The notes under the pieces are model-generated. The model made no database searches and was not told where the DNA came from. It saw only the letters and a list, made by a program, of their open reading frames with translations. Of a stretch of 64,000 nucleotides of DNA, positions 5,737 to 38,482 are shown one piece after another (position 1 is the stretch's first letter; every line of letters starts with the position of its first letter). Source of the stretch: Aquimarina acroporae (lineage in GTDB: Bacteria > Bacteroidota > Bacteroidia > Flavobacteriales > Flavobacteriaceae); NCBI RefSeq assembly GCF_023195925.1, contig NZ_JALPRE010000003.1, positions 496,001 through 560,000 on the forward strand. The letters run 5' to 3'. The position numbers and the translations under genes are program-made.

Positions 5737-6369
5737 ATGATCCAAACAAGTGCGCTCCAGTTTGCTTATGATTCCTCAGGAATTGATGCTTTTTCTTTTC
5801 CTGATATTGATTTGCCTCCCAAAGAAAATTTGTTAATATTAGGGCCGTCTGGAGTAGGTAAAACCACGTTTTTACATCTTTTGGCGGGGTTGATACCTCC
5901 TAAAACTGGTGATGTTTTTATAGCTGATAATTGTTTGAATAGATTAACCAGAAAACAACTCGATCGTTTTAGGGGACAACATATCGGGCTAATCTTCCAA
6001 AATACACATTTTATTAGATCGTTGACCTTACTTGAGAATTTAATCCTTCGTGAGCGAATTTCTGTCAAGAAAAATGATCGTTATAGAAGGGAAGAACTAT
6101 TAATGCATTTGGGGCTTTCTAATCTTCTAAATAAAAAGGTGTATCACTTAAGTGAAGGGCAGCGGCAGCGACTTTCTATTGCTTTAGGAGTTGTGCATAA
6201 ACCTAAAGTTATACTGGCAGATGAACCTACATCAAACCTTGATGATGCAAATTGTGAAAAGGTAATTTCTTTGCTCAAAAAGGAAGCCGAAATTTGCAAA
6301 AGTAATTTGGTGATTATAACACATGATCAAAGAGTGAAATCACATTTTAAGAATCACATAAATTTATAG
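5737..6369 (+). CDS. ABC transporter ATP-binding protein, LolD/MacB-like
   Basis: The 210-residue ATPase shows Walker A GPSGVGKTT (about residues 37-45), the Q-loop LIFQNTHFI, signature LSEGQRQRL, Walker B VILADEPTSNLD and the switch His in ITHD. This arrangement belongs to the LolD/MacB branch, which partners with FtsX-fold permeases rather than transporting a solute through a channel. The permease gene follows after 3 bases. In Vibrio, a comparable LolD/FtsX set (ZrgABCDE) works in zinc uptake; that parallel, together with the His-rich permease, is the basis for a zinc assignment, which remains inference. Confidence 0.9.
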   Translation: MIQTSALQFAYDSSGIDAFSFPDIDLPPKENLLILGPSGVGKTTFLHLLAGLIPPKTGDVFIADNCLNRLTRKQLDRFRGQHIGLIFQNTHFIRSLTLLENLILRERISVKKNDRYRREELLMHLGLSNLLNKKVYHLSEGQRQRLSIALGVVHKPKVILADEPTSNLDDANCEKVISLLKKEAEICKSNLVIITHDQRVKSHFKNHINL

Positions 6370-6372
6370 AAA

Positions 6373-7746
6373 TTGTTATATCTGGCCTATAAGAACCTGG
6401 TTTCTAAACCGCTAAATACTATTTTGAGCGTTTTGTTACTCATGATAAGTATCGCATTGGCGACTTTTGTTTTACAAATTAGAAGTCAACTTAACCGGCA
6501 TTTAGAAAGTAATATCAAACCATTTGATATGGTTGTTGGGGCCAAAGGGAGCCCTTTACAACTTGTTTTATCATCGGTACTACATATTGATAATCCTACA
6601 GGGAATATATCGTTCGAAAAAGCTAGAAATCTTGTTAGGGGCCGAATGGTTAAAGAAAAGATTCCCGTTGCTTATGGCGATAATTATAAGGGAATTAGAA
6701 TTTTAGGTACGACAAAAAGATATTTAACGGTATATAGTGCAAGAATAAATCGGGGTAGGCTCAACGAAAAACCATTTGAAGTTGTTCTGGGAGATCAAGC
6801 AGCCAAAAAAATAGGTCTACAAATAGGAGATACTTTTGTTAGTTCTCATGGTCTTGCCGAAAGCGGATTCGAAACCCATGATGAAAAGCCATTTACAGTT
6901 ACAGGAATTTTAAAACCCAGTGGAACAGTTGTTGATCATCTTATTATAACTACTTTAGAAAGTATTTGGCAGGTACATGAGCACGAGGATGATCATAGCG
7001 CTAATGAAGATGAACATGAAGGTACTCATGAAGAAGAAGAAGAACATAAAGAGGTACATGGTATCCATGATGGAGCTAAACATGGAGAAGAACAAGCAGA
7101 TATGCCCAGTATCTTTACAGAAGATTATAAAGAGGAGCATAATGAGGGTCATGGCAAACATGAAGAAGAGCGTCATGTAGATCATGATCTGCATAAAGAA
7201 GAAAAGGAAATTACCTCAGTGTTGGTGAAATTTAGAAACCCGGTCGGAGCATTGCAACGATCCAGATTTATTAATGAGGAAACTGCGATGCAAGCAGCAC
7301 TTCCAAAATTTGAAATCGAACGATTGATGAAATTTCTGGGAGTAGGTTTTCAAACGATTAATATTATGGCAATAGTCATACTTTTGTTTGCCGGGCTAAG
7401 TATATTTATCAACTTGGTAAAAACGGTTAGGGAGCGTAAACAAGAGTTGGCATTGCTACGAACCTATGGAGCAAATACTTTACAGTTAATGCTGTTAGTA
7501 TTTATGGAAGCACTTTTTTTATCTTTAATAGGATTTGTTTTAGGCTGGGTATTCGGAAGATTAGGTGTCTTGGCTTTCTCAAAGTTCTCTACAAATTCTT
7601 ATGGGTATCATTTTGCGTTTGGAACTCCAGATAGCAACGAATTATTTGTTTTTATTATAGTGATTTTAACTACTTTGTTAGCAGCAATTTTAGCCTCCTT
7701 ATCCATATTTAAATTAAATGTTTCTAAAATAATAACCGATGCATAA
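6373..7746 (+). CDS. FtsX-like ABC permease with His-rich insertion
   Basis: The 457-residue protein has an N-terminal helix (about residues 14-35), a periplasmic MacB-like domain (about 40-310) and three C-terminal helices with the FtsX motif RKQELALLRTYGA. Between about residues 197 and 278 there is an insertion very rich in His, Glu and Asp (for example HEHEDDH, DEHEGTHEE, HDLHKEE), a likely metal-ion-binding arm in the periplasm. It starts with TTG at 6373: an in-frame stop closes the frame just upstream, and the next Met would remove part of the first helix. It ends 8 bases inside the next gene, indicating translational coupling. Probably works with the ATPase upstream in divalent-metal handling. 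Confidence 0.85.
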   Translation: MLYLAYKNLVSKPLNTILSVLLLMISIALATFVLQIRSQLNRHLESNIKPFDMVVGAKGSPLQLVLSSVLHIDNPTGNISFEKARNLVRGRMVKEKIPVAYGDNYKGIRILGTTKRYLTVYSARINRGRLNEKPFEVVLGDQAAKKIGLQIGDTFVSSHGLAESGFETHDEKPFTVTGILKPSGTVVDHLIITTLESIWQVHEHEDDHSANEDEHEGTHEEEEEHKEVHGIHDGAKHGEEQADMPSIFTEDYKEEHNEGHGKHEEERHVDHDLHKEEKEITSVLVKFRNPVGALQRSRFINEETAMQAALPKFEIERLMKFLGVGFQTINIMAIVILLFAGLSIFINLVKTVRERKQELALLRTYGANTLQLMLLVFMEALFLSLIGFVLGWVFGRLGVLAFSKFSTNSYGYHFAFGTPDSNELFVFIIVILTTLLAAILASLSIFKLNVSKIITDA

Positions 7747-33697: not shown

Positions 33698-34240
33698 TTG
33701 GAAACCGACATCCGTTTTACACATAAAGCACTGGTTGAGCAATGCAAAGCCGGTAATGCTAGTTCACAATATGAGCTGTATGGGCTTTATGTAGATGCTA
33801 TGTATAATGTTGGAATCCGGTTTTTAGGGAATAAAGAAGAGGCAGAAGATATCGTACAGGATAGTTTTGTAGATGCTTTCAAAAAACTACATAGTTTTAA
33901 ATATGATAGCAGTTTTGGAGCCTGGTTAAAACGAATTGTGATCAACAAAAGTATTAATCGTCTAAAAGCTAAAAAAATTCCTGTAGTATCGATGGAAATG
34001 CATGAGTTTTATCTGGCCGATGAAGAGCCTGCGCATGTTTCTGAAACTGTTGATATTAAAAAGGTTAAGCTCGGTATTGCAAAACTGCCAGAAGGATATC
34101 GCCAGATTATCAATTTGTATTTAATAGAGGGGTATGATCATGTAGAAATAGGAGAAATACTTGGCATTTCTACAAATACTTCTAAATCACAATATCATAG
34201 AGCGAAGAAAAAACTATTAGAAATTATAAACGAAATGTAA
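33698..34240 (+). CDS. RNA polymerase ECF-type sigma factor
   Basis: The 180-residue sigma-70-family protein has region 2 (AMYNVGIRFLGNKEEAEDIVQDSFVDAFKKLHSFKYDSSFGAWLKRI) and region 4 (LPEGYRQIINLYLIEGYDHVEIGEILGISTNTSKSQYHRAKKKL). It begins with TTG at 33698, because an in-frame TGA lies directly upstream and the nearby ATG (33679) is out of frame and short. Its stop overlaps the next start (TAATG). It likely directs RNA polymerase to envelope genes; the following membrane protein is a candidate anti-sigma factor. Confidence 0.9.
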   Translation: METDIRFTHKALVEQCKAGNASSQYELYGLYVDAMYNVGIRFLGNKEEAEDIVQDSFVDAFKKLHSFKYDSSFGAWLKRIVINKSINRLKAKKIPVVSMEMHEFYLADEEPAHVSETVDIKKVKLGIAKLPEGYRQIINLYLIEGYDHVEIGEILGISTNTSKSQYHRAKKKLLEIINEM

Positions 34241-34779
34241 TGGACAATTTCGAAAAACATATTAGAGAGAATGCAACTCAGTTTAATGAGCATAAAGCCG
34301 ATCGAGATAAAATGTGGGCGCATATTTCTTCTGAACTTCAAAAGAAAGAGACTAGGATAATCCCACTTTGGGTTTGGCCAGTGGTGAGAGTAGCTTGTTT
34401 TGCGATTCTTTTTCTTGGGATAGGTGGCTTTGTAGGTTTTTCTATTTATAAAAGCACTACCCCAGAACAACAATATGTATCAAAAGAACTACAAGAAATT
34501 AATATGCATTACAAAGATGTGCTGGCATATCAAATTTCATTAGTTGAGAAAAACCCAAACCTTTCTAGTGAAGATAAAACAGAGTTTTTGTCTTTTATGG
34601 ATGAACTTGATGCCGAATACGAACTTCTGCGTTTAGAGTTGCAAAACAATTTGGATAATGAACGTATCCTGGAAGCAATTGTAGCCAACTATCAAAAAAG
34701 AATTGAGTTGATTCGCAACTTGTTACAAAAAATTAATGATTCTAAAAACCTAGACAATGATTATGGATACACCTTATAA
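34240..34779 (+). CDS. Membrane protein, candidate anti-sigma factor
   Basis: The 179-residue protein has an N-terminal cytoplasmic part (MDNFEKHIRENATQFNEH), one membrane helix (about residues 46-68, WPVVRVACFAILFLGIGGF) and a helical, coiled-coil-rich periplasmic C-terminus (LRLELQNNLDNERILEAIVANYQKR). Its ATG overlaps the sigma stop (TAATG), so the two are translationally coupled, and the topology fits anti-sigma factors. No ZAS zinc motif (HxxxCxxC) is present, so the family is unassigned. Confidence 0.75.
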   Translation: MDNFEKHIRENATQFNEHKADRDKMWAHISSELQKKETRIIPLWVWPVVRVACFAILFLGIGGFVGFSIYKSTTPEQQYVSKELQEINMHYKDVLAYQISLVEKNPNLSSEDKTEFLSFMDELDAEYELLRLELQNNLDNERILEAIVANYQKRIELIRNLLQKINDSKNLDNDYGYTL

Positions 34780-35851
34780 ATTTGTCCTTTTGATGACTTT
34801 GTCCCTGTTCTTGATAACAGTGGGTACCGCTCAGGAGAGGGTATCTAAAACCATTGAAAAGACTTTTTCCTTAGCCAATGGAGGAGAGCTAAATTTGGAG
34901 AATAAATACGGTAATGTTACCATGACAGGTTGGGATCAAGATAAAGTCGCCGTTACAATACAGATAAAAGTAAACCATCGAAAAAAAGAAAATGCCAAAG
35001 ATTTACTAAGTAGAATACAACCTGAAATCACTTCTACCAATGGTTATATTTCAATTGTTTCCCAAATAACTAATAAGAATACAGGTTGGTTTGCAGATTT
35101 TTTTAATCGCAATAATCCAATCGACTTTGATCGAAGTCACGTAAAAATAGATTATGAGGTATTCTTGCCTAAAAAAGTTAAGCTTCGAATAACTAATCGT
35201 TTTGGAGATGTTTTTATCGAAGATTGGAATGGTTTATTGAATGCGGTCATAGAACATGGTGATCTTTGGTTGGGAGAAGATTTGAATAAAGCAGATATCA
35301 AATTAAAATTCGGAAAAATAAGAGCAAATAATCTTGACTATGCTTCTGTTACATTGAAGAATGGTGAACTGGATATGGAAAATTCAGAAAACCTACGCCT
35401 GAGTAGTGATGGGTCTGATATTAAGATTAATGAGGTGAGCACTTTGGAAATTTATTCTAATAAGGACGATATTATTATTGAACAATTAGATGTAATATCG
35501 GGTGACCTAAAGTTTAGTACATTGAATTTAAATCGTCTGTCCAGCAATGTGAATCTGAGCATGAAAATAGTAGATTTTCGAATAAAAGAAATTCTTAACC
35601 CGGGTATTAAAATAGAAATAGAGCAGGAGTCATCAGACATTAACCTCAATGTTACCAATTTTCCGCATCGCTTTTCCGCCAGATTAGAACAAGGTGTAGT
35701 TCGATTACCCAAGTCGTTTGAACATGTTAGTTCTAATATGATTAATAAGCTAAAAAAGCTTCGTGAAATAGAAGCCTCCTATGGTAAAAGTCCAAAAGGT
35801 ATTATATCTATCAGTGGTATGAAAGGCATAGTAACTCTAAATGATCTTTAA
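34757..35851 (+). CDS. DUF4097-like secreted beta-helix protein
   Basis: The 364-residue protein has a signal peptide (FLITVGTAQ) followed by KTFSLANGGELNLENKYGNVTMTGW and repeated short beta segments (SVTLKNGELDMENSENLRLSSDGSDIKIN), the pattern of DUF4097 (putative auto-transporter adhesin head-like) proteins. The ATG at 34757 lies 23 bases inside the previous gene; another ATG at 34763 would serve equally. Often found after ECF sigma/anti-sigma pairs in Bacteroidota. Location would be periplasm or outer membrane; function unknown. Confidence 0.75.
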   Translation: MIMDTPYKFVLLMTLSLFLITVGTAQERVSKTIEKTFSLANGGELNLENKYGNVTMTGWDQDKVAVTIQIKVNHRKKENAKDLLSRIQPEITSTNGYISIVSQITNKNTGWFADFFNRNNPIDFDRSHVKIDYEVFLPKKVKLRITNRFGDVFIEDWNGLLNAVIEHGDLWLGEDLNKADIKLKFGKIRANNLDYASVTLKNGELDMENSENLRLSSDGSDIKINEVSTLEIYSNKDDIIIEQLDVISGDLKFSTLNLNRLSSNVNLSMKIVDFRIKEILNPGIKIEIEQESSDINLNVTNFPHRFSARLEQGVVRLPKSFEHVSSNMINKLKKLREIEASYGKSPKGIISISGMKGIVTLNDL

Positions 35852-35901
35852 GCATAAAATAAAAGATATTATCATCAATTAAAATCAGTAAAACCAACAA
35901 A

Positions 35902-36567
35902 ATGAACAATCAAAAAACTATTATTTTTTTAGTGCTATCGATGATTTTTTTCGGTGCTTTTGCACAAGATGAAGATGACAAGTATATTACTTTTAATGAT
36001 CGAAGAAATGTAGTACATGGTGTATATGTGGGATTAAGTCTTGGATATGGTGAAATTGAGGGTGAAGATACATATGTAAGTGGATTAAAGATTGCTTATG
36101 TGGCAAATCGACAATTTGAAGTGGGGTTTTTAATGAAAGGTTTGTATTCTAGACAAAATATTTTTAATCCGAGATCAATGGAAAACGACGATCTATTTGC
36201 TGGGTACGCAGGTTTTCACTTTGAGCCTATATTTTTTGGTACTTCCAGGGTGAGTTTAGCCTTTCCTCTTTTTATTGGAGGAGGAGTTGCAGGGTACGTA
36301 GATCGGAAGACAGTAGAACGTGATGAAGATATCGATATTGGCGATGATGATCTAGACGCGATTTTTGTTGTGGAACCTGGTGTTAGTGCACTTTTTAATA
36401 TTTCGAGATATGCACAGATAGAAGCGGGAATTAAATACAGGTTTTCTAGCAAAATAGAATTGGTAGATAGTCCAATAGATCGCATTAATGGCTTTACTGG
36501 TGAGGTAGGAATAAAACTGGGGATATTCAATATGGGACGAAATCGTTACAAAAAGAAGTTAGACTAA
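35902..36567 (+). CDS. Small outer-membrane beta-barrel protein
   Basis: The 221-residue protein has a signal peptide (FGAFAQ) and alternating hydrophobic strands (VVHGVYVGLSLGYGEIEGED, FEVGFLMKGLYS, VSLAFPLFIGGGVAGYV, AQIEAGIKYRFSS, GFTGEVGIKLGIF) typical of a small barrel. It carries an acidic loop DEDIDIGDDDLD. It is last of the sigma-factor group. No family name recognised. Confidence 0.7.
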   Translation: MNNQKTIIFLVLSMIFFGAFAQDEDDKYITFNDRRNVVHGVYVGLSLGYGEIEGEDTYVSGLKIAYVANRQFEVGFLMKGLYSRQNIFNPRSMENDDLFAGYAGFHFEPIFFGTSRVSLAFPLFIGGGVAGYVDRKTVERDEDIDIGDDDLDAIFVVEPGVSALFNISRYAQIEAGIKYRFSSKIELVDSPIDRINGFTGEVGIKLGIFNMGRNRYKKKLD

Positions 36568-36710
36568 TGAATAGTAATATAAACATTCAACGAGAAATTA
36601 TTGAGACGGTTAAGGTGTATTCAAAGAATGAACAAGTGTTTATAAAAACACGCAACAAAAATTGGCTTCCTATTTCTTTTCGTTGGGTACATCATCAAAA
36701 ACTACTCTAG
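36567..36710 (+). CDS. Possible 47-residue protein overlapping the barrel gene stop
   Basis: An ATG at 36567 overlaps the TAA stop of the preceding gene (TAATG) and opens 47 codons: MNSNINIQREIIETVKVYSK to the stop at 36708-36710. Its middle (KNWLPISFRWV) lies inside the 35-bp repeat that recurs at 42425, where it is again read in an open frame. It could be a translationally coupled peptide or a remnant of a repeated coding sequence. Confidence 0.35.
   Translation: MNSNINIQREIIETVKVYSKNEQVFIKTRNKNWLPISFRWVHHQKLL
36656..36690 (+). repeat. 35-bp direct repeat, left copy
   Basis: This stretch is identical over 35 bases to 42425-42459, same orientation. Both read KNWLPISFRWV in one frame. They bracket a 5.7-kb block of accessory genes. 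Confidence 0.85.
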
Positions 36711-36739
36711 CTCCTATAATTTTTTCCACTAAATATTAG

Positions 36740-36985
36740 TTGGCACTATCAAAATTTGAAGTAAAAAAGCTAGATGTTGCTGCTCAACTATCTGATACTA
36801 TGGCAGAACTACTTGCCAAAGCCAATGGTGCCGCCCAAGAGAACTCGGTATCTAAGTCGCTACGCGATAAAGCGTTTACACACCTTAAAGAAGCCGTAGA
36901 CGAGGTGCGGGCTGCTGGCAAATATGCGTTTAAAGCAGACCCAGATCGTTTTAAAGGGTATGTGAGTAGGTACAAAAGGCAATAA
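36740..36985 (+). pseudogene. Probable C-terminal gene fragment (helical, unknown family)
   Basis: An 81-residue open frame starts only with TTG at 36740, directly after an in-frame TAG, and ends RFKGYVSRYKRQ. It is predicted all-helical (VAAQLSDTMAELLAKANGAAQ) and its end resembles the last residues of longer Bacteroidota proteins with a GKYAF...KGYxSxYxR tail. That and the missing ATG suggest a truncated 3' remnant. The reading frame continues, beyond its TAA at 36983, exactly in phase with the 21-nt array. Base composition is richer in G+C than the neighbours. Confidence 0.4.
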
Positions 36986-37003
36986 ACCCACAGTATTGCT
37001 ATC

Positions 37004-37137
37004 CCCCGCAGCAGCATCAAGGCTCCCCGTAGCTACATAACTGCTCCCCGCAGTGGTTTACCCTTTCCCCGCTGGTAAAAGAGCCGCCCTCGCAATTGTT
37101 TTATACATCCCCGCAGTATACAGACTCTCCCCCGCAG
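37004..37137 (+). repeat. Array of seven CCCCGCAG cores with exact 21-nt period
   Basis: Cores start at 37004, 37025, 37046, 37067, 37088, 37109 and 37130: CCCCGCAG, CCCCGTAG, CCCCGCAG, CCCCGCTG, CCTCGCAA, CCCCGCAG and CCCCGCAG. The 13 bases between cores are not conserved. An inverted CTGCGGGG follows at 37156-37163 and can pair with the last core. 21 bp is two helical turns, so all cores face the same side of the DNA. In the plus-1 frame the array reads as heptads containing PRS, but with a stop at 37076. Confidence 0.85.
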
Positions 37138-37310
37138 CTGGGACAAGCTTTGTTACTGCGGGGATTGTGTTTTTAAATGCGAGGAAGCGTAGTGATACTG
37201 TTGTGAAGAACTGCGAAGCTGAGGGGCGCAGTAAACGTATGCGAGAGGCAATGACAGATGGTGTATTTAATGAAAATTAAATACGCTTGTGTGTTATCTG
37301 CTATTAATGT

Positions 37311-37342
37311 AGCAAGGCAAATTGTTACCTTGCTTTTCGATT
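37311..37342 (+). terminator. Hairpin terminator after the array
   Basis: AGCAAGG (37311-37317) pairs with CCTTGCT (37328-37334), with extra AA/TT pairs inside, followed by TTTCGATTTTT. It would end a plus-strand transcript through the gene fragment and array. Confidence 0.6.
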
Positions 37343-37449
37343 TTTCTGGGCAGTGGTTGTTAACTTTTACTTTCTGCAGGCATTACGCCTTTATAAATAT
37401 ACAATAACCAATCGATTGATCACTTTGTTGCTATGATCACATATATGTT

Positions 37450-37460
37450 GTTGTACAACG
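37450..37460. repeat. Second boundary copy (TGTACAACG) with 10-bp palindrome
   Basis: GTTGTACAAC (37450-37459) is a perfect palindrome overlapping TGTACAACG, the same short sequence found at 38143-38151 in the same orientation. It lies directly after the disrupted gene. Confidence 0.4.
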
Positions 37461-37463
37461 TTT

Positions 37464-37841
37464 TTATTTTTTCATTATTTGCTCTACGTACTTTCTGTGG
37501 TTTTGGTATCCGTTATTCTCTGGGTTATCCAAATCAATCATTCCGTCAATTCCGGAGTCATAAATCTGCCAATTTTACTTTTTAGCTAATACAATCAATT
37601 CGAAAAGTCCATTTTCTCCATACAACGAAAGCATAAAATTACTTGAATGCTCATTAGAGGAAAAGAAGTCAATTGCGAAGTTTTTTCCGATTATTTCTCT
37701 ATGATTATCATCCTTTTTTACTCTTTCAAATAAGTTTTCTAAAATTCCACTAAAGTCAGTCGGTTCAAGTTGAGTATCGTCTAATTCTGCAACCGATTCT
37801 ATTTTTTGTTTTAAATAAAAAAGCACAATATCCCAACTCAT
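37464..37841 (-). pseudogene. Disrupted gene: small cytoplasmic protein with in-frame stop
   Basis: The frame begins MSWDIVLFYLKQKI at 37841, runs 88 codons to AKK and stops at TAA (37575-37577). The same frame then continues without interruption for 36 codons, NWQIYDSGIDGMIDLDNPE to MKK, to a second TAA at 37464. The combined 125-codon protein matches my recollection of a common Bacteroidota family that starts MSWDIV and ends with a (N)WQI-DxG-M-DL-NP-NG-Y motif. A single codon change therefore split a formerly complete gene. Function unknown; members are often seen among cassette-like or immunity-type small genes. Confidence 0.6.
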
Positions 37842-37844
37842 AAT

Positions 37845-38126
37845 TTAAAAATTAAATTCACAAATATTTTGATGAATACTAACTATTTTTAAACATTCAT
37901 CTATTAATTCTGAAACTCTCGAAGTCGGAATTAAAGTGTAATTGTAGACAGTTCCGATTTCATTCTTTTTTGAGGAACCCCATTCGTATTCAGTTCCATT
38001 TTCATCAATAATAATGGATTTTCCTTCAAAAACGTCTTGCCATTCAACTCTTTGAGTTAAATCAGTAATGCTCTTGTAGACTATTACTTGGTGTTCGAAA
38101 TCTATTTTATCAATTAAGAATATCAT
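37845..38126 (-). CDS. Hypothetical small cytoplasmic protein
   Basis: 93 residues from the ATG at 38126 (MIFLIDKIDFEHQVIVYK ... HQNICEFNF). A longer frame extends upstream to 38267, but those residues come from the palindromic boundary element, so the internal ATG is favoured. It ends 3 bases before the MSWDIV gene and together they form a two-gene unit flanked by TGTACAACG repeats. No family recognised. Confidence 0.55.
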   Translation of the reverse strand: MIFLIDKIDFEHQVIVYKSITDLTQRVEWQDVFEGKSIIIDENGTEYEWGSSKKNEIGTVYNYTLIPTSRVSELIDECLKIVSIHQNICEFNF

Positions 38127-38138
38127 TAGTTTTGTCAA

Positions 38139-38269
38139 ATGGTGTACAACGGTCTCGTGTATGAGCTGTAGTGGATTTAACGCCACTAGGCTGTCGGTTA
38201 GCAAGTTACTTGTTAAAATGCAAAAACGGCTCAAGTACGCACTTGAACCGCTATTGCTTATACACAATG
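38139..38269. repeat. Imperfect palindromic boundary element (cassette-like)
   Basis: The segment carries nested inverted repeats: GTGTATAAGC pairs with GCTCATACAC (9 of 10), CGGTTCAAGT with ACTTGAGCCG (9 of 10), and TAGTGG with CCACTA. One end contains TGTACAACG (38143-38151), which recurs in the same orientation at 37452-37460 after the two-gene unit. The layout resembles an attC site of gene cassettes in shape, but the canonical GTTRRRY core is not met. Confidence 0.5.
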
Positions 38270-38482
38270 TTAGCTGCTGTTCTTTGTTCTAATTAATGAA
38301 ACTACTTTACTCCAAAAAGGAATTAAAATATAAACCATTAACGGCACCAGTACAACAGTCAGAACAAAAGTTCTAAGCAGAACTGGCAAATGGTTTAGGT
38401 ATTCTCCAAATGATAACAATATTCCTGTTATAGCTGGATATATTGCTATCCAAACGATAAATGCTGATTTTAATTTTTTCAT
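38270..38482 (-). CDS. Small integral membrane protein
   Basis: 70 residues from ATG 38482 (MKKLKSAFIVWIAIYPAITG); an ATG 24 bases upstream is possible. Two membrane helices (SAFIVWIAIYPAITGILLSF and LLRTFVLTVVLVPLMVYILI). The pattern, P-x-x-T in helix 1 and LRTxxLTxxLVPLMVY in helix 2, recalls the membrane tail found in some Bacteroidota monooxygenase-like proteins. Its stop adjoins the boundary element. Function unknown. Confidence 0.6.
   Translation of the reverse strand: MKKLKSAFIVWIAIYPAITGILLSFGEYLNHLPVLLRTFVLTVVLVPLMVYILIPFWSKVVSLIRTKNSS

Follow-up and report, generated by a model that had tools for sequence, protein, structure and literature searches.

A helically phased 21-nt array in Aquimarina acroporae and its relatives: a possible dispersing two-part element with a small all-helical protein

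We report that a short array of phased 8-nt cores in Aquimarina acroporae belongs to a larger group of arrays lying beside genes for one family of small all-helical proteins, and that the relatives of this array conserve its 21-nt lattice, not the word written on it. The array lies in a stretch of 64,000 nt (hereafter the window, to which positions refer; L and G numbers designate our loci and genomes). We tentatively read it as the decayed form of an element that disperses and has two parts, a phased half-site lattice and a helical protein matched to it that works in trans, an explanation that we favor while stopping short of calling it probable. The combination of 21-nt array and helical protein is apparently undescribed so far and widespread in bacteria; among the matches listed from the open-licence literature, the accessible portions of the papers held no description of it.

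The forward half of the window array (37004..37137, + strand) comprises seven cores that start at 37004 + 21k (k = 0–6), with a spacing of 21 throughout and zero slip. B-DNA makes a turn every ~10.5 bp, hence 21 bp correspond to two turns. The first-pass annotation had described seven CCCCGCAG cores at an exact 21-nt period: the period holds, but only four of the cores are exact (37004, 37046, 37109 and 37130), the other three being near copies, namely CCCCGTAG at 37025 (one mismatch), CCCCGCTG at 37067 (one) and CCTCGCAA at 37088 (two). Cores of 8 nt alternate with spacers of 13 nt, and here as in relatives the spacers vary while the cores are kept. When periods 10–40 were scanned over 36985–37270, the top block of seven cells by eight columns was the one with period 21 from 37004, in which 52/56 positions match the column majority, against a maximum of 36 (mean 33.3, sd 1.1) in 60 dinucleotide shuffles. 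Local G+C was said to be raised, and it is: 0.49 (36750–37249) and 0.43 (37000–37499) versus 0.30–0.38 in adjacent intervals clear of the array.

The array is two-sided. An exact inverted core, CTGCGGGG, stands at 37156 as previously noted, and further inverted cores that had been missed follow on the same 21-nt grid: ATGCGAGG at 37177 (two mismatches), CTGTTGTG at 37198 (three), CTGAGGGG at 37219 (one) and possibly a fifth, with a 1-base slip, at 37239. This inverted half (37156..37226, − strand) is more decayed, whereas the forward half is well preserved. Read in the CCCCGC/GCGGGG register, forward and inverted cores are offset by 7 mod 21, the same as in relatives. At the junction (37130..37174, + strand), CCCCGCAG and CTGCGGGG followed by TTTTT could form a putative terminator-like hairpin, equivalent to one in the leader of the Aquimarina GCGGGG group, where both-sided changes in 4/20 pairs (17 sequences) amount to modest covariation. 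A search of 36500–38300 against Rfam for known structured RNAs returned nothing up to E = 1.

Immediately before the array lies an 81-aa ORF with its stop codon (36740..36985, + strand), which tblastn and profile alignment identify as the C-terminal third of a ~233-aa helical protein family. It aligns to profile positions 152–232, leaving the first ~150 residues absent, and inspection by eye of the three forward frames of 36561–36990 revealed no N-terminal part upstream, so that the gene appears 5′-truncated. The first core starts 21 nt past the first base of the stop codon, a distance also found in L030, L031, L035, L043, L062, L066 and L080. Searching with the 81-aa ORF (tblastn) gave 28 matches, the window included, across 17/56 genomes, the own genome included. 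Because the gene is truncated, the inverted half is eroding and the exact two-core pattern has no second copy in its own genome, this copy is probably a leftover that is no longer autonomous. Broken or truncated family genes beside surviving arrays are also seen at L067 and L094–L099; at L067:6001-6700 the gene is split over two frames, and array and leader are well preserved.

A Pfam scan of the eight proteins encoded in 33698–38267 returned one ECF sigma factor above cut-off and nothing else; neither a replication initiator nor a ParA/ParM-like or other partition ATPase or filament partner was found among them. The earlier description of an iteron-like array is borne out in part: phased DNA sites are supported in kind, since relatives conserve the lattice and most arrays with both orientations keep the offset fixed, but with no replication initiator found among these eight proteins, iterons in the strict sense are not supported. 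Further downstream, 37309–37474 and ~38140–38275 hold a ~160-bp repeat that ends in GTTGTACAACG and a second, different stretch; Aquimarina genomes contain the repeat in many copies and clusters, C23 and C1 of G000 among them. By eye, the two look like integron attC sites around reverse-strand cassette ORFs (37575–37841 and 37845–38267). An array unit carried as an integron cassette was considered and rejected, the attC-like repeat lying ~60 bp behind the window array and not consistently near other copies.

The protein family itself resembles little that is catalogued. An AlphaFold (AF2) model from 44 family sequences consists entirely of helices (pLDDT 91.5, pTM 0.69). For four full-length members, Pfam and NCBIfam gave nothing above cut-off, PHROGs no convincing E-value and PADLOC no match; searches of the PDB by sequence with family members yielded nothing significant, and Foldseek of the model against the PDB yielded no match at E ≤ 0.001. 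The best VIA-align row reached Z 8.3 (2rld, S23 family, rmsd 2.7, 92 aligned), which is within the helical-bundle background, and we claim no fold kinship from these rows. No DNA-binding domain was found in the family proteins or the neighbors scanned, and no catalytic domain or enzyme of movement was recognized. The pI is acidic to neutral (4.6–6.8) in seven of eight sampled proteins and 9.2 in one.

The distribution of the family is patchy. Only 2/395 genomes of an order sample carry the gene, one of them the window's own; plasmid and phage records gave no family match, and none of 121 pattern matches in viral contigs was confirmed. A scan of contigs recovered 70 loci, mostly from Aquimarina, the others coming from Joostella, Microscilla, Draconibacterium and Sunxiuqinia records and from metagenome-assembled genomes (MAGs) labeled, as recorded, Flammeovirgaceae, Aminicenantes, Gammaproteobacteria, Deltaproteobacteria, Spirochaetes and Pseudomonadales. 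A palindrome, CAGTTCCGAAAAATGAAACTGG, precedes the start of the family gene (L030 ~5880–5930 and relatives), and short matches to it are dispersed over many Aquimarina genomes, G000 included. At L039, the array is cut short just past the family stop codon and is followed by an ORF resembling, by eye, an IS200-type (Y1) transposase, which adjoins CCCCCGCTCCCGCTAGCG palindromes.

Arrays with a 21-nt period are found directly behind the family gene in 58/71 loci including the window (p < 0.01, 200 shuffles each), from which we discount L045, a 7-nt tandem repeat, and L088, which is mostly N. This leaves 56/69 usable loci, made up of 39/46 in the Aquimarina-type set (window included) and 17/23 elsewhere, with 13/69 lacking a downstream array at this threshold; control stretches from the same loci scored in 17/505 cases (p < 0.01, 100 shuffles each). 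Many of the loci are closely related, and the counts are not to be read as independent events. Over 70 loci (L088 left out), exact 6-mers recurring behind the gene at 21, 42, 63 and 84 nt total 3137, against 72–189 for each of the other periods between 15 and 30 (21 and 28 excepted); the 14- and 28-nt series, which share multiples with 21, gave 1454 and 917. The family arrays begin behind the stop codon, outside the gene. Their spacers share higher-order duplications of 42, 63 or 126 nt. In L053, L065 and L095 (Aquimarina aquimarini and A. longa), strong repeats of 42, 84 and 126 nt would fit an expansion, by duplication, of two cell types that take turns. In arrays of the GCGGGG group (e.g., L030:6800-7000), the 21-nt grid that carries the TGCGGGG cells has cells of another type, TGCCGATGGTCGATAAAA, alternating with them. 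Two loci of an Aminicenantes MAG, L078 and L082, have 22-nt arrays upstream of the gene and no downstream array.

What changes from branch to branch is the word. Core words include CCCCGC, CCCGGC/TCCCGG, CCGCGC, CACCAT, TCCTGTA, TCCCCA, AGACCC, AAGAAT, CTACAG, CTTACG and TAGGAA. Among locus pairs, a phased 6-mer is shared by 53/76 at ≥ 70% protein identity versus 98/665 below; among 26 same-genome pairs with arrays, 17 have no phased 6-mer in common and nine have at least one, and in A. mytili five of six such pairs have none. The group L060–L063 carries TCCCGG or CCCGGC; L182, with a protein 84% identical to that of L061, carries TCCCGT/ACGGGA, and L181, with a protein 77% identical to that of L062, carries TCCCCGC/GCGGGGA. 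With about seven forward and about seven inverted cores (by eye), L181 resembles an unbroken version of the window array. Forward copies followed by inverted ones are a frequent layout in relatives, and the offset between them is 7 mod 21 for words as different as CCCCGC, CCCGGC, CCGCGC, CTGCGC, CACCAT, AGACCC, AAGAAT and CCCCAC; shifting the 6-mer by 1–2 bases to either side turns it into 5, 9 or 11. Other or mixed offsets occur in L041, L042, L051, L052, L064, L069, L083, L094 and L098, and by their commonest phased 6-mer L053, L068, L084, L086 and L089 are direct-only.

A second association comes from proteins matching NF052641 ("PQLLE family protein"), which were searched in a 395-genome sample of the phylum, the order search having covered another 395 genomes. 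Matches were present in 14/395 genomes, five over the cut-off, and in 0/14 control genomes. In the 30 loci analyzed, out of 32 matches listed, a 21-nt array stands upstream of the gene in 22 (p < 0.01; 6/8 above the curated cut-off and 16/22 below), and a downstream one in 7/29. Upstream 6-mer recurrence totals 2689 at period 21 versus 53–105 for periods other than 14, 21 and 28. The scanned proteins of the window's family, hereafter family A, score at best 30.7 bits against NF052641 (L018), where the curated cut-off is 80, while hhalign of family A against the PQLLE subgroups gave E values of 7e-5 and 1.3e-3 (probabilities 63% and 18%) for two of them and 0.018 for a third. On these alignments PQLLE proteins are probable distant relatives of family A, with two subgroups supported and the third unconfirmed, and we grade the link between the two protein groups as moderate. 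We regard it as likely that protein and lattice are functionally connected, because genes that are probably related carry arrays of the same exact period, though on their other side. The term "PQLLE" was searched in the open-licence literature and no paper was found.

The lattice also exists without the gene. Aquimarina genomes contain 14 solo arrays at nine separate sites, where tblastn over the 2.9–5.8 kb read found no family gene, and every genome with a solo array also carries the family gene elsewhere. In the first nine solo loci, L140, L141, L142, L144, L146 and L147 share flanks and represent one site, L143, L145 and L148 being separate; in most copies the shared site is adjoined by what is presumably a polysaccharide-lyase-like ORF, and L147 is counted with this "PL6" site because its right flank is common, which gives nine sites in total. 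The further loci are two in G032 and three of the TCCCGG type. The left flank of L172 contains 368–417 bp that recur in opposite orientation in the right flanks of L142 and L146, and the L172 site may not be fully independent. In 6/9 of the first solo loci, the start of the leader is the sequence found right behind the family stop codon. Part of a ~160-bp insert in the array leader of L034 (~6718–6880) also adjoins, by eye, the solo array L145, which suggests that L145 may have been copied from an L034-like array.

Strict TCCCGG triplets spaced by 21 nt number 22, spread over 5/52 Aquimarina genomes, with zero in the control; the TCCCGG-type solo arrays of G017, G019 and G032 carry the word of the resident gene's array, while G777 and G788, which have a related gene, lack the triplet because their word differs. 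An array can insert alone. The flanks of L171 lie ≤ 15 nt apart in G012, G016, G022, G023, G025 and G788, that is in 6/12 other genomes searched, ~50 nt apart in G003, and around longer, other DNA in the remaining five. The flanks being contiguous elsewhere, ~315 bp consisting of the array alone were inserted here between two convergent genes. Its borders show a near repeat of 5–6 nt and no exact target duplication. Flank searches for L147 and L148, and for L060 as a gene unit, returned no empty site.

Gene units behave differently. Similar units are homologous in DNA from ~140–170 bp before the start codon to the end of the array, and for many of them at least 400 bp of further flank is common between species (e.g., L038/L039, L070/L071/L092, L062/L066 and L030–L033). 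L031 and L034, from one genome and 88% identical over the gene, have no common flank. Given the flanks shared between species, gene units are largely inherited at fixed sites and do not move freely, and the claim of mobility rests on the solo arrays.

In the two-part element that we favor, the lattice would consist of short half-sites on one helix face, arranged in 21-bp cells with a forward half-site, an inverted one or both, often with the forward cells first and the inverted ones after. A cell with both half-sites would form a palindrome of 15–17 bp, and we read the 21-bp cells from their sequence as fitting such a palindrome, of which often one half-site is kept. The second part would be the small all-helical protein encoded beside the lattice, which, by itself or in a complex, might assemble on it as a regular oligomer and recognize the local core word, the word turning over while the 21-bp geometry stays. 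Acting in trans, it would also serve gene-less copies of the same array, and these would spread within the genome. Exact helical phasing, the palindromic register, unrelated words, the lack of a general RNA structure and arrays on either side of the gene all argue that the arrays work as double-stranded DNA. The simplest model on these grounds is an oligomer of the adjacent protein on the lattice. Coating DNA would be unusual for acidic-to-neutral proteins, which counts against the binding model, as does the failure to recognize a DNA-binding or catalytic domain. The two-part reading is further weakened by the inexact borders of L171, the three flank searches that gave no empty site, the fixed inheritance of many gene units, the 13/69 loci lacking a downstream array, the nine same-genome pairs with a common phased 6-mer, the single occurrence of the exact two-core pattern in the window's own genome and the moderate link between the two protein groups. 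In a wider sense, these pairs might represent a new class of element in which the fixed 21-bp geometry is the address and the word is replaceable, where the protein drives or exploits the spread, to selfish rather than housekeeping benefit, and paralogues are kept apart by word; we consider this possible and hold it with clear reserve. The same guarded reading would place the class in Bacteroidota and in MAGs labeled as several other phyla.

The strongest competitor, unlikely in our judgment and still to be taken seriously, is a centromere-like or chromosome-organizing site, coated by the protein to anchor, segregate or fold the chromosome, with solo arrays as extra anchors. Helically phased, partly inverted arrays with paralogue-specific words resemble plasmid partition sites, at which families that coexist have to avoid cross-reaction (compare the accessible part of PMC9426499), and it would suit an anchor that one solo array is held at a common site in six Aquimarina genomes and that many gene units share flanks between species. 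However, the eight proteins around the window array include no ParA/ParM-like partner, there are no plasmid or phage matches, and a gene present in 2/395 genomes of the order sample and 17/56 near relatives is not a general housekeeping function. Somewhat further down, and improbable, is an operator array, in which a regulator would bind its own 3′ or 5′ region together with the solo arrays of a regulon. Arrays do sit at gene borders, and the TCCCGG solo arrays match the word of the resident gene, but those of family A lie behind the gene and several of the solo ones fall between genes that converge or after stop codons, which are poor promoter positions; since the PQLLE arrays are upstream, the relation to a promoter is not fixed.

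A guide-RNA array of the TIGR-Tas kind, with the core as repeat, the ~13 nt as spacer and the protein as a small RNA-guided effector, strikes us as very improbable. Here too an array adjoins a small single protein, with repeats constant per locus and differing between loci (compare the part of PMC12045711 available to us), and Nop5 figures among the VIA-align rows at Z 6.3. That score is within the usual helical-bundle range, though, and none of the four full-length proteins scanned has a Pfam Nop match. Many arrays switch orientation midway and could not be used alike by one guide transcript, their spacers share the higher-order duplications described above, and TIGR arrays as published are built of dual repeats from which 36-nt RNAs are processed (PMC12045711, same part). 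Nor is there any general RNA structure in the arrays: the median fold z is −0.75 in one set of 44 and +0.64 in another of 14. The most negative values belong to L077 (−10.6), L045 (−8.3, the 7-nt tandem repeat), L059 (−6.1) and L087 (−5.5); in L077, L059 and L087 forward and inverted halves are able to pair.

Tandem-repeat noise, or a slippage by-product without function, has hardly better than a slight chance: the higher-order duplications do indicate that arrays grow by duplication, but the recurrence of a single exact period under unrelated words, next to members of one protein superfamily and on different sides of the gene in two of its subfamilies, an offset fixed in most two-sided arrays, spacers that diverge while cores stay, and a local control of 17/505 at p < 0.01 speak against it. 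We practically dismiss the decayed heptapeptide repeat that the first-pass annotation offered as its alternative, even though 21 nt equal seven codons, the upstream arrays of the PQLLE loci L105 and L112 read by eye as heptads in one frame, and 31/45 arrays tested have at least one open frame (a weak test where a frame is found, since 21 is a multiple of 3 and open frames arise easily), because the window is closed in all six frames, 14/45 arrays have none open, forward and inverted copies of one word stand in the same array, family-A arrays start behind a stop codon, and the loci examined held no intact heptad gene, the finding named beforehand as decisive for coding.

If the two-part reading is right, anonymous intergenic arrays of Bacteroidota belong to one protein superfamily of unassigned function, and nature has supplied a protein series with a constant frame and different site words, on which rules of DNA specificity are directly testable. 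It would also add a class of mobile repeat that uses neither a Y1 transposase nor another recognized enzyme.

By analogy, phased array and protein may work in the manner of a REPIN-RAYT pair, or of a centromere array, while built from other parts, and they depart from each in a defining feature. REPINs are small inverted intergenic elements dispersed in one genome and linked to a specific protein gene (PMC3116915, in the part available). The likeness lies in gene-less copies dispersed in a genome that holds the gene (14 solo loci, nine sites). In contrast, the adjacent protein is all-helical and no Y1/HUH transposase (nothing above the Pfam cut-off for four full-length proteins), the unit is several to many 21-bp cells rather than an inverted pair of 20–40 bp palindromic REPs, and few solo copies were seen per genome. 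MITEs have terminal inverted repeats and a target-site duplication; the one defined pair of borders here, at L171, bears the near and not exact 5–6 nt repeat.

ParR/parC and iteron-type centromeres are clusters of short, phased, partly inverted sites. The phased arrays share this arrangement, together with a word that differs between coexisting systems, but have no motor or partition ATPase beside the window array, occur also without the gene and appear in none of the plasmid records; from replication-origin iterons they differ in that no cognate initiator is near the window array (eight proteins, Pfam). ParR specificity and incompatibility are treated in PMC9426499, again as far as that text was accessible.

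TIGR arrays have repeats that are constant within a locus and variable between loci, with dual repeats giving 36-nt guides (PMC12045711, in the portion available). Both kinds consist of short repeats next to the gene for one small protein and can lie on either side of that gene. TIGR arrays are unidirectional, whereas the 21-nt arrays often switch orientation, the window included; four full-length phased-array proteins gave no Pfam Nop match, with Nop5 among the VIA-align rows at Z 6.3, and gene-less dispersed arrays are present. CRISPR arrays combine direct repeats of ~23–50 nt with unique spacers and Cas genes. The window has 8-nt cores and 13-nt spacers, and four family proteins gave no PADLOC match.

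Among repeats of Bacteroidota, heptamer direct repeats of TAACTGA, reported also in five Bacteroidetes (PMC4679880, available part), were rejected as the same element, being 7-nt tandem units with a single word. Closer is the BrickBuilt MITE of Porphyromonas gingivalis, dispersed intergenic tandem units with leader and tail (PMC4596501, in the part available). It resembles the phased arrays as a Bacteroidota intergenic repeat of this build, but its units are 23 nt without spacers and form one sequence family, and the accessible part of PMC4596501 mentions no protein partner, whereas phased arrays have many words. Also comparable are the NF052641 PQLLE proteins, probable distant homologues that have 21-nt arrays as well, from which family A differs in that its scanned members score below the cut-off and in that its array lies behind the gene instead of upstream.
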